64,000 nt of DNA, from contig VGUJ01000002.1 in NCBI GenBank assembly GCA_016874235.1, forward strand, positions 1-64,000, given 5' to 3'. Source of the stretch: Gammaproteobacteria bacterium (GTDB lineage Bacteria; Pseudomonadota; Gammaproteobacteria; Steroidobacterales; Steroidobacteraceae). Below, one piece after another: positions 43,784-48,256 of the stretch (positions within the stretch are counted from its first letter, which is position 1; each line of letters opens with the position of its first letter). Position numbers and translations under genes: made by a program. The notes under the pieces were generated by a model. The model made no database searches and had not been told where the DNA came from. It saw only the letters and a program-made list of their open reading frames with translations.

Positions 43784-45637
43784 TCATCCCCCTGCCGCAA
43801 GGATACCGCGTGCCTCGAGCAAGGCGAGCACCCGCTCGGCGGCCTCGTCCGCCGTGCAATCGACCGTGTTGATTCGCAGCTCGGGGGACTGCGGCGCCTC
43901 ATAGGGCGCGTCGATGCCGGTGAAGTTTTTGAGTTCTCCTCGGCGTACCTTGCGGTAGAGCCCCTTGGCATCCCTCGCCTCGGCGACCTCGAGCGGCGTG
44001 TCGACATACACTTCGATGAACTCTCCCTCTTCGAGCAGCTGCCGCGCCATGTCGCGCTCGGCTCGATACGGAGAAATGAACGCCGTCAGCACGATGAGAC
44101 CCGAGTCGACCAGGAGCTTGGCGACCTCGGCGATACGGCGAATATTCTCGACGCGATCGGCAGCCGTGAATCCGAGGTCTCTGTTGAGACCGTGACGGAC
44201 GTTATCGCCGTCGAGCAGATAACTGTGACATCCCCTAGCGAGCAACCTCTGCTCGAGCGCATTGGCGATGGTGGATTTGCCTGATCCCGATAACCCCGTG
44301 AACCACACCACGACGGGCTTTTGTCGCTTGAGCGCCGCGCGCGTCGCTTTATCAACGCTCACCACCTGTCGATGAATGTTTCGAGAGCGACGCAAGGCGA
44401 ATCGGATCATGCCCGCCCCAACCGTCGCGTGACTCAGGCGATCGATCACGACGAATCCACCCATCGCTCGATCGAGCTCATAGGGCTCAAACGCCACGGG
44501 CTGATCGAGCGCTACGTTACAGGTTCCGATTTCATTGAGCTCGAGCTGTCGCGCTGCGAGCAACTCGAGCGTGTTCACGTTGACCTTATGCTTGGGCGTA
44601 GAGAACACGGCACCCATCGTTCGCGCGCCGATCTTGAGCAGATAAGACCGGCCAGACAGCATCGGCTCGTCACCGAGCCAAACTAGCGTCGTTTCAAACT
44701 GATCAGCGATCTCGGCGGGGTCGGTTGCGGCGCTGATGACGTCGCCTCGCATCACATCAACGTCATCGGTCAGCGTAACCGTGATCGACCGCCCTGCCGC
44801 CGCCTCGACGAGATCGCCGTCAGCAGTCACGATGCGCGCGATCTGAGTTTGACGACCCGAGGGCTGGATCCGAACCCGATCACCGACACGCAGCACACCG
44901 CTCGTGACCAGACCACTGTAGCCACGAAAATCAGGCGATGGCCGATTGACCCACTGCACGGGCAGTCGCAGAGATCGATCGATTTGTTGCGACACCTCGA
45001 TCTCGACGGTCTCGAGATGACTCAGGAGTGTCGGACCGCGATACCACCGCATCCGCGCGCCATGGGTGACGACGTTGTCACCGCCAAGCGCCGAGATCGG
45101 AATGGCGATGATCTCGGTCAACCCGATACGCTGCGCGAACTCGCGGTAGTCGGCAACGATGCGATCGAAGTCATCTTGCGAGTAGTCGACGAGGTCCATC
45201 TTGTTGACGGCCAACACGACGCGTCGGATACCCATCAAAGAAACCAGATAGGAATGACGGCGGGTTTGCGTGAGCACGCCTTTACGCGCATCGACGAGAA
45301 TCAACGCGAGCTCGGCCGTGGAGGCGCCGGTCACCATGTTGCGCGTGTACTGCTCGTGCCCAGGCGTGTCGGCCACGATGAACTTCCGCCGCGGCGTACT
45401 GAAAAACCGGTAAGCCACGTCGATCGTGATGCCTTGTTCGCGCTCTGCCGAGAGCCCATCGACGAGCAGTGCGAAGTCGATGGCCTCGCCTTGCGTCCCC
45501 CACTTTTTGCTGTCGGCTTCGAGTGCAGCGAGTTGATCGTCGAGCACCTGACGAGACTCGTAGAGTAAACGACCGATCAGCGTGCTCTTGCCATCATCGA
45601 CGCTGCCGCAGGTAATGAAGCGCAGAAGATCGGACAT
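43784..45637 (-). CDS. cysNC: CysNC, ATP sulfurylase GTPase subunit fused to APS kinase
   Basis: The 617-residue bifunctional protein has an N-terminal EF-Tu-like GTPase ([54 protein letters not shown]) with beta-barrel domains. The APS kinase domain begins near residue 440 ([33 protein letters not shown]). CysN drives APS synthesis by CysD; the kinase makes PAPS. Both catalytic parts appear complete. Its ATG overlaps the cysD TGA by one base, and the acyl-CoA dehydrogenase follows 3 bp after it. Confidence 0.97.
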
Positions 45638-47322
45638 CAGAAGTACCCCTCTCGCTTCTTGCGCTCCATCGACGCGGGCCCATCATGGTCGATCAAACGA
45701 CCTTGACGCTCGCTGTATGTCGATTGCCGCATTTCTTCGATGATGTCGGGCAGCGTCTCTGCCGCGCTTTCGATGGCTCCGGAGAGCGGATAACAACCGA
45801 GCGTGCGAAATCTCACCTTACGCATGACCGGGACTTCTCCCGGCTGCAAGGGGAATCGCGCATCGTCCACCATGATGAGCATGCCGTGACGCTCGACGAC
45901 CGGACGCTCTTTTGCGAAATACAGCGGGACGATCGGAATGTTTTCGAGCCCGATGTACTGCCACACGTCGAGCTCGGTCCAGTTTGACAACGGAAATACG
46001 CGGATCGACTCACCGGGCGCCTTGCGAGCGTTATAGAGATTCCAGAGCTCGGGCCGCTGGCTGCGTGGATCCCAACGATGATGCGCGTTGCGAAACGAGA
46101 AGACGCGCTCTTTGGCACGTGACTTTTCTTCGTCGCGACGCGCGCCACCAAATGCCGCGTCGAACCCATGCTCATCGAGTGCCTGTCGCAGACCTTCAGT
46201 GTTCCATTGATCGGCATGTACCTGCGAGCCGTGGGTGAACGGATTGATCCCAAGACGAACGGCCTCCGGGTTGCGATGTACGATGAGCCGAAGACCATAC
46301 TCGCGCGCAACCCTCTCGCGCATGTCGTACATCTCGCGAAACTCCCAGGTGCTGTCGATGTGCAGCAAAGGACAAGGCAGCGGCGACGGAAAGAACGCTT
46401 TGCGCGCGACATGCAGCATCGCCGCGCTGTCCTTACCGCCGGTGTAAAGCAGTACAGGCCGCTCGGTCTCCGCGATCACCTCGCGCATGATGTGGATGCT
46501 CTCAGCTTCGAGTTGCTGCAGGTGAGGAAACTCATCCCTCTTCGCTGAGGGTCGCACTACCGGAATCGCTATCGGACCCGGACCGCGCGGAGCACCCATG
46601 AGTTGCACGCTCGAGTGCTGGGCCGCCCACTCGCGAACCTCGGGTCGTGCTACGTCGATGCCGTGCAACAACACGCCGCGCGTCTTCGGCCAAGCCTCGA
46701 TCACACGATCGAGAAACGACAGCCAACTTTCGAGACGAAACGGTTCGATGAGAGGCCGCCACGCCACCTGACCGCGCAAGGTTTGCGCGACGAGCACACG
46801 CGCGGATGCGCCGATCTTGCACTCACCACACCACAAGATCTCGCCGGGTACTCGACGCGTTTCTTTGATGAGCGACACGACAACGTTGGCTCGCCAATCT
46901 GCCATCGTACGATCGGCCGCTGCGGACTCGGCGAGCGTCGGCAATCCGAGCCCCGCGCGCGTCAGCAATCGAGAGAGGGCGCGACCCTCAAGCGTCACAC
47001 CAAAGATTTGATGCACCTCACGTGCAACCGCCTCGGCAGTCCACAGCGAATCGTCGCCCACGGGCGCCGCGGTCGAAAATCGGTTGACGAGCGCGGCTTC
47101 ATCCTCGGCACGAAGCACTCGCCTCGCCCCGACGGGACGCCCTCGGCGACGCTGATCGAGCGCCTCCCAGCCGCCTTCCGAAAACACTCGGGCGGCCTCG
47201 ATGATGGTCGGTGCACTGAGACCTGTCTCGGCGCGAACCTCGGCCAGGGTCCGCCCGGCCAGGCGCATTTCGACCGCGCGGCGTCGACGCTCGACGAGTG
47301 AGACGGATGGAGTCTTGGGCAT
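45637..47322 (-). CDS. cysD: CysD (ATP sulfurylase catalytic subunit) with N-terminal IS630-transposase-like HTH/DDE-derived domain
   Basis: One open frame of 561 residues (ATG 47322; an upstream TTG at 47346 would add 8). Residues about 260-561 are a complete CysD: LRQLE-type [17 protein letters not shown]-loop [43 protein letters not shown] and [11 protein letters not shown] at the end. Normal CysD is about 300 residues. The first 255 look like an IS630-family transposase: HTH ([36 protein letters not shown]), winged HTH ([16 protein letters not shown]) and a DDE-like fold. The DDE-like catalytic positions read WCGEC and LHGID, so the Asp residues are lost. An internal ATG (46599) lacks a ribosome-binding site. 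It probably binds DNA while keeping sulfurylase activity. Confidence 0.93.
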
Positions 47323-47342
47323 TGATGAGATAACCTGTTGTC

Positions 47343-47400
47343 CCAATTGGTGAATTTTATGTCTATTAATTATTTAATCAAGGGTCTAGAAAAATACATC
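47343..47400. promoter_or_regulatory. AT-rich divergent control region between cysD and cysQ
   Basis: This stretch is strikingly AT-rich against the GC-rich surroundings. It holds the palindrome CCAATTGG (47343-47350) and the inverted repeat ATTAATTATTTAAT (47365-47378). It covers the likely promoters of both genes and is the natural place for an operator bound by the HTH part of the CysD fusion. No confident -35/-10 pair could be fixed. If cysQ starts at ATG 47359, part of it would be coding. Confidence 0.45.
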
Positions 47401-48174
47401 GTCGACCCTGTGTTTTTGGAAGCAGTGGTCGGTATCACTCGGAACGCCGGTCGGGTCGTGGCTGAGGTTTACGCCACGGACTTCGCCGTATCCGCCAAAC
47501 CTGATGCCTCACCGGTCACGGTCGCCGACGAACGAGCGGAAGCCGTCATCGTGGCGGGTCTCTCAGCCCTGACCCCCGACCTACCCGTCGTGGCCGAGGA
47601 ATCCGTTGCTGCAGGACGTATCCCGACCGTCGATGCGGCGCGAGATGCGTTTTGGCTTGTTGACCCTCTCGACGGGACCCGAGAGTTCGTCAGCCGCAAT
47701 GGCGAGTTCACAGTCAATATCGCCCTCATTCAGGCGGGTGAACCCGTTCTCGGGGTCGTACTCGCACCGGCCCTCGACAGCCTTTACGCGGGCGCTAAAG
47801 GCCTGGGCGCCTTCAAAGAGCAGAGCGGCCGTCGTCTCGCCATCGCTTGCCGCAGACCACCCGCAGAGGGGCTCGCAGTCGTGGAGAGTCGGTCGCACGG
47901 CGACGGCACAGCACTCGATGCCTGGCTACAGCAGCTCGCGCGACCCATCGCCTCGCGAGTGAAAGCAGGCTCATCGCTCAAGCTCTGCGTACTCGCTGAG
48001 GGTGGCGTCGATCTCTACCCTCGCCTCGGGCGAACCATGGAATGGGATATCGCCGCGGGCCATGCGGTCTTGGCCGCGGCCGGCGGACGCGTGACGAGGC
48101 TCGATGACCGGCAAGCGCTTCGCTATGGAAAATCGGGGTTCGAGAACCCGGGGTTCGTCGCGGAGGGGTTGTGA
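47359..48174 (+). CDS. cysQ: CysQ, 3'(2'),5'-bisphosphate nucleotidase
   Basis: The inositol-monophosphatase-like enzyme hydrolyses PAP (and PAPS), clearing the by-product of sulfate reduction or sulfation. Metal-site motifs are [29 protein letters not shown] and [16 protein letters not shown]. The start is uncertain. ATG 47359 (271 residues, GGTG six bases upstream) gives a 17-residue AT-rich-coded lead that the family lacks. GTG 47410 (254 residues) matches the family N-terminus but has no ribosome-binding site. Divergent from the cysD fusion, consistent with one sulfate-activation module. Confidence 0.92.
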
Positions 48175-48180
48175 GAGGGT

Positions 48181-48256
48181 TGGTGGGTCCTGCGCGATTC
48201 GAACGCGCGACCAACTGGTTAAAAGCCAGCTGCTCTACCGGCTGAGCTAAGGACCC
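48181..48256 (-). tRNA. tRNA-Lys (anticodon UUU)
   Basis: A 76-nt tRNA on the minus strand has acceptor GGGTCCT, T loop TTCGAAT, encoded CCA and anticodon loop CTTTTAA, giving anticodon TTT. It lies 24 bp after queC, the position it has in many Gammaproteobacteria at the end of the tol-pal-que cluster. It ends 6 bp from the convergent cysQ. Confidence 0.96.

Follow-up and report, generated by a model that had tools for sequence, protein, structure and literature searches.

Why should CysD, subunit 2 of sulfate adenylyltransferase, carry some 260 extra residues that resemble an IS630 transposase, and what might these residues do for sulfate activation? The question is raised by a gene in the window (the whole stretch of 64,000 nucleotides that was analysed, from a genome of the Steroidobacteraceae), the features of which are collected in Table 1.

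An IS630-like domain in frame with CysD

The fusion frame is uninterrupted from the ATG at 47322 to the stop codon at 45637–45639. The ATG is common to the nearest relative (L003), and a TTG at 47346 is the alternative start. The sequence-only reading, which described one frame joining an IS630-type part to a complete CysD, is borne out by the profile matches on both sides of the junction: the N-terminal part matches transpos_IS630, and residues 259–561 match the CysD family NF009214 over its full length (511 bits, for a cut-off of 413). The CysD part also matches the structure 1zun_A of the PDB (E 5e-136). The genome of the window contains a single match to the whole fusion protein, and the sole CysD match that was found there is the fused gene. 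The gene cysNC is directly downstream, and its ATG overlaps the stop codon of the fusion. On the other side, the divergent frame is presumably cysQ-like, a name given from sequence likeness. A tRNA-Lys (ttt) is located at window positions 48181–48256, between the cysQ-like gene and queC, and the order is the same in L004 and L005.

Table 1. Features of the fusion locus and of its neighbours, in window positions.
Feature	Position	Strand	Basis
Fusion gene, 561 aa, IS630-like domain and CysD	45637..47322 (including stop codon)	minus	open frame
IS630-like N-terminal part, residues 1–257, read as domesticated	46550..47322	minus	transpos_IS630, Pfam HTH_33/HTH_28
First helix-turn-helix, residues 9–57	47152..47298	minus	predicted helices 9–21, 26–33, 37–57
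GR(P) linker, residues 58–69	47116..47151	minus	G61 and R62 invariant in 10/10 rows of alignment A3
Second, winged helix-turn-helix, residues 72–122	46957..47109	minus	HTH_33 at residues 90–125; predicted helices
Predicted DDE/RNase H-like fold without acidic triad, residues 160–245	46588..46845	minus	profile match to IS630 DDE half
CysD, sulfate adenylyltransferase subunit 2, residues 263–561	45640..46536	minus	NF009214; PDB 1zun_A
cysNC, 617 aa	43784..45637	minus	Pfam GTP_EFTU and APS_kinase
cysQ-like gene (presumed), divergent from the fusion	47338..48174	plus	longest frame; start codon uncertain
Palindrome ATTAAATAATTAAT (minus-strand reading), proposed operator	47365-47378	none	motif and genome searches
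Predicted -35 TTGATT of the fusion promoter	47376..47381	minus	promoter prediction
Predicted -10 TAAAAT of the fusion promoter	47354..47359	minus	promoter prediction

The kinship with IS630 proteins is supported by several comparisons. Residues 12–185 match the NCBIfam model transpos_IS630 at model positions 1–169 of 299, with E values of 1.4e-14 to 6.2e-14 and scores of 52–54 bits, which is below the family cut-off of 100 bits, and all ten members of alignment A3 match this model. The match to Pfam HTH_33 exceeds its cut-off, and HTH_28 is also matched. When the DDE-like half alone is compared, profile against profile, with the corresponding half of ordinary IS630 proteins, the E value is 2.5e-15, versus 0.32 for the reversed control. 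The strands and helices predicted in this region follow the RNase H order, and matches to integrase cores were obtained from a structure model of low confidence. A sequence search at E 1 returned no solved structure related to the N-terminal part. The best-conserved part is the first helix-turn-helix, which holds most of the invariant columns of A3 (10 rows). The domain is present as one copy in the genome of the window, and at the same place in four members of the genus.

The catalytic centre had been described as dead from the motifs WCGEC and LHGID. In the alignment with ordinary IS630 proteins, the two Asp columns are indeed occupied by G166 (WCGEC) and H220 (LLHGID), and no residue aligns with the third acidic column. 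Across the 41 cysD-linked domains that were aligned, the D-D-E triad is never intact: the first Asp is present in one, the second in one, and the Glu in none. The triad is kept in 18 of 18 ordinary IS630 proteins, a figure that is partly built in, since these proteins were chosen with a pattern requiring the ELNP.E region and an Asp near the first site; three distinct ordinary rows (L049, L052, L081) were dropped before this alignment. The reading of the N-terminal part as a domesticated IS630 transposase, one that has kept its two predicted DNA-binding domains and lost its catalytic triad, is well supported at the level of sequence.

Distribution, selection and trees

The earlier reading had considered that the fusion might be absent from close relatives and result from an assembly error. 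On the contrary, the fusion is present in 4 of the 24 genomes of the genus, as well as in another genus of the same family and three additional families. Its occurrence in three more assemblies from the genus excludes an assembly error, and the fusion recurs in many independent assemblies.

A search with the whole protein matched 61 of 98 related genomes, mostly in CysD alone. Besides the window, the matches that extend over both parts are those of G018 (86%), G002 (68%) and G003 (66%, where the contig ends inside CysD). G013, whose contig ends in the linker just short of CysD, is probably a fifth carrier. A hairpin-like repeat, probably an assembly artefact, is seen at the contig end of G013 (L006, 2300–2537), where the N-terminal part of the fusion would start. 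A scan of named genomes gave a single locus (L032), in a metagenome-assembled genome of Steroidobacteraceae (class Gammaproteobacteria). The profile of the N-terminal part matched in 4 of 24 genomes of the genus, 22 of 217 of the family, 26 of 396 of the order and 26 of 369 of the class; the non-fused matches are mostly ordinary IS630 transposases or pieces of them, as judged from the length of the open frames, a subset of which was read.

The fusion was read in G189, which belongs to another genus of the same family and where cysQ is also divergent, and further in G304, G792, G598 and G801. In total, 40 frames, each from a different genome, were read with a CysD core behind the domain, and they represent four families; at least two of these frames (L005, L142) are cut by contig ends, and L138, which was missed by the CysD pattern, is not counted among them. 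In family f160, around G792, the domain profile matched in 42 of 48 genomes, in 38 of them in frames of at least 569 aa. Around G801, 5 of 27 genomes match the domain and four of these carry fusions. In a fifth family, two genomes (G803 and G944; loci L091, 1495–2277, and L155) encode the domain on its own, immediately ahead of cysD and cysN, and 5 of the 145 genomes of that order match the domain. In L091, the gene that diverges upstream of the separate domain is presumably ion-transporter-like.

The linkers that precede CysD differ in length and in sequence among the fusions. A trimmed form of 416 aa in G697 (L099, 547–1794) has only the first helix-turn-helix and the GR linker ahead of CysD, and a frame of 415 aa in G839 is similar to it by its length alone. 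Regarding plasmid-borne copies, a tblastn search of plasmids with the whole protein matched 356 records, none of which covered at least 80% of the query.

The IS630-like domain is under purifying selection. The dN/dS ratio of the N-terminal part is 0.09–0.25 in 11 of 13 pairs, the other two being saturated; that of the first helix-turn-helix and linker is 0.03–0.18 in 10 of 13 pairs (three saturated), and in 9 of the 10 unsaturated pairs, it is below the value for the N-terminal part as a whole. In a quick tree without bootstrap, built from 30 of the domains, the cysD-linked domains form one side of a branch with the ordinary IS630 proteins on the other (SH-aLRT 95). In the CysD tree, the fused state as labelled needs seven changes, so that a single fusion event is not established; it is important to note that the labels of L128 and L152, both fusions, are wrong in this tree, and that L006 is cut by the contig end.

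A palindrome ahead of the fusion gene

The sequence-only reading had pointed to the divergence from cysQ and to a palindrome in the gap, and both were recovered: the cysQ-like gene diverges upstream, and the 14-bp palindrome ATTAAATAATTAAT is located 43 bases ahead of the fusion start codon. In the window, the two strand matches of this one site compare with 0.01 expected from 100 shuffles. The predicted promoter of the fusion, of which one was found versus 0.2 expected, agrees with the consensus at 9 of 12 positions with a spacer of 16, and the palindrome overlaps its -35 element and the spacer. Among four members of the genus, the -35 element and the palindrome are covered by 16 consecutive invariant columns, the longest such run in the alignment of 144 columns.

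Motif discovery upstream of the fusions, from the 35 of 42 stretches left by a redundancy filter, gave the palindromic motif ATTAAATATTTAAT. Its log-likelihood ratio is 125, versus 22–32 in five dinucleotide shuffles; these control runs had a smaller number of starts and rounds, and the shuffles ignore the kinship of the upstream sequences. The motif scores above 4 in 29 of the 35 stretches and below zero in the other six; the three fusions of family f173 that were tested all score below zero. Ahead of 14 unfused cysD genes from relatives, the palindrome is not found, the best match reaching 6–8 of 14 positions; these genes are 15 recognised loci out of 26, minus L006, which was set aside as a fusion probably cut by its contig end. 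In a longer arrangement, seen upstream of the fusion in the subgroup of L090 and L121–L125, AAAAGTTT... and ...AAACTTTTATAG are inverted and approximately 60–70 bases apart, and replace the compact palindrome.

The site is also rare at the scale of genomes. In that of the window, WTTAAWTAWTTAAW occurs exactly once; one more site has one mismatch and lies inside a frame that we take to be dprA-like, and the reversed pattern used as a control also gives one site at one mismatch. In 37 other genomes, 16 exact sites were found in 13 genomes, versus two sites for the reversed pattern, and 24 genomes have no exact site. Eleven of the 16, in 11 genomes, are directly upstream of the fusion gene. The other five were inspected as candidate members of a regulon, an idea that was rejected: three (L173, L174, L177) are inside the 3' part of a presumably cyoE/ctaB-like frame, one (L171) is 17 bp before what we take to be a groES-like gene, and one (L166) is between two short frames.

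It is possible that the proposed operator descends from a terminal repeat of IS630. Among 23 rows of ordinary IS630 loci, the inverted repeat that best matches at the two flanks starts with (T)TATTAA in seven and with TACTAA or TTACTAA in four, while the other 12 differ. The half site of the palindrome is TATTAA, and its likeness to the IS630 tips amounts to six AT bases. A wider and tentative scenario, which we consider doubtful, is that a single, early domestication of a DDE transposase in the Gammaproteobacteria took in the tip of its terminal repeat as operator, and that fusion to CysD would have made the transposase a sensor-regulator of sulfate activation. If both the domestication and the sensor-regulator reading were true, a transposon would have given rise to a one-gene feedback circuit of metabolism.

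Proposed function and known systems

We propose that the fusion protein is a single-target autoregulator of the cysD–cysNC operon, namely a trigger enzyme in which a domesticated transposase provides the DNA-binding part, and we give this reading a probability of about 0.6. It follows from the selection on the helix-turn-helix parts, from the single palindrome in the promoter, and from the fact that most divergent fusions, unlike unfused cysD genes, are preceded by the palindrome; as the regulator is CysD itself, a trigger enzyme is the plain reading. The free fusion protein would bind the palindrome and lower transcription; when engaged with CysNC and its substrates, it would be relieved from DNA, so that the output of the operon would track the demand for activated sulfate. 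DNA binding by the N-terminal part is predicted. We infer repression, rather than activation, because the palindrome overlaps the -35 element, and the state of the enzyme would be sensed through CysD, since the regulator part is fused to it. The operator-like site suggests that the fusion may control sulfate activation, as the sequence-only reading had it.

The autoregulation could also operate without any sensing, the join to CysD serving just to keep both parts in one transcript and at one copy number. That the domain is a separate gene before cysD in G803 and G944, and that the linkers are so variable, are consistent with this idea. However, the fused state is nearly universal in f160 and the only CysD match of the window genome is fused, which would be pointless if separate proteins worked equally well. 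We consider this alternative to be rather unlikely.

The role of CysB has to be considered here. A CysB match is found in 13 of the 20 fused genomes tested, so that another regulator of the operon is often present. The hypothesis that the fusion replaces CysB is therefore not general, and in most hosts, control by the fusion seems to come on top of that by CysB. In the genome of the window, no CysB match was found at E 1e-40, whereas other members of the genus have one, and none was found in the f173 genomes, fused or unfused. In G002 (C3, 29260–29829), CysB is present only as a piece with stops.

The frequent presence of CysB gives some room to another hypothesis, in which the N-terminal part would be an assembly or stability module of CysD–CysN, and the palindrome would belong to another regulator, CysB for example, or be just an AT-rich promoter. 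The f173 fusions, which lack the motif, are in line with it. On the contrary, the window genome has the palindrome but no CysB match at that threshold; the motif is absent before the 14 unfused cysD genes and nearly unique in each genome, unlike the site of a regulon regulator; and the first helix-turn-helix is both the best-conserved part and the one retained alone in G697. These observations make a stability module quite improbable.

The sequence-only reading had also considered that CysD might be translated only from an internal start, the upstream frame being a separate protein or untranslated. This is very unlikely as a general explanation: within the 20 codons that precede the CysD core, a possible start (ATG, GTG or TTG) is missing from 7 of the 40 fusions and an ATG from 19, and the window has no ATG there, just a GTG that lacks an SD-like 4-mer. 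What stands is that an ATG with an SD-like 4-mer precedes the core in 7 of the 40, which may make free CysD as well. Last, the N-terminal part could be a degenerate IS630 copy, inserted recently or passively, in frame by chance and tolerated without function. This is scarcely credible: the IS630 ancestry is clear, but dN/dS far below 1, conservation over four families and the branch apart from ordinary IS630 proteins already contradict it.

If the fusion is indeed a trigger enzyme, a captured transposase lets a core enzyme of assimilation control the operon that encodes it, with one gene and one site per genome, which would account for the additional 260 residues of CysD in a family where the domain is found in 42 of 48 genomes. 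The protein and its 14-bp site would then be a test system for the transition from transposase to regulator.

Compared to IS630-family transposases (NF033545), the fusion has the same order of helix-turn-helix, GR(P) linker, winged helix-turn-helix and, as predicted, DDE/RNase H-like fold, but it lacks the D-D-E triad, the third acidic region and the stretch after the first Asp; the cysD-linked domain also differs in being fused to or adjoining cysD, and in scoring below the family cut-off. Compared to CysD (NF009214; 1zun_A), it has the whole protein, followed by cysNC, and adds about 260 N-terminal residues with two DNA-binding folds.

PutA, BirA and NadR are described as trigger enzymes in excerpts of two articles (PMC8249747, PMC6978683), and the enzymes listed there do not include one of sulfate activation. 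Like the fusion, they combine an enzyme and a DNA-binding part in one protein, that of the fusion being known by sequence; the fusion differs in that this part comes from a DDE transposase and that binding is predicted. According to the excerpt of PMC8249747, PutA binds solely the spacer between putA and putP, which resembles the single palindrome between the fusion and the cysQ-like gene, a site known here as a sequence and from which the f173 fusions are excepted. PutA is the nearest working parallel. Searches of the open-access literature gave no description of a fusion of CysD to a transposase or to a helix-turn-helix. Trigger enzymes are thus already known, while the combination of CysD with a domesticated transposase appears to be new, and would, if our reading is true, add another enzyme to a short list.

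Bacterial regulators have also been derived from proteins of mobile elements. TldR derives from the transposon-encoded TnpB. Like the fusion as we read it, TldR is a bacterial regulator (PMC13418256), but it is RNA-guided, involves no DDE transposase and has no metabolic enzyme as a partner. In eukaryotes, FHY3/FAR1 are transcription factors derived from transposases, according to excerpts of PMC13306707 and PMC10027918. They reuse a dead transposase for DNA binding, as we propose for the fusion, although they come from other transposase families and are not fused to a metabolic enzyme. If our reading is true, the CysD fusion is, in bacteria, a clear counterpart of the transcription factors that plants and animals have derived from transposases.
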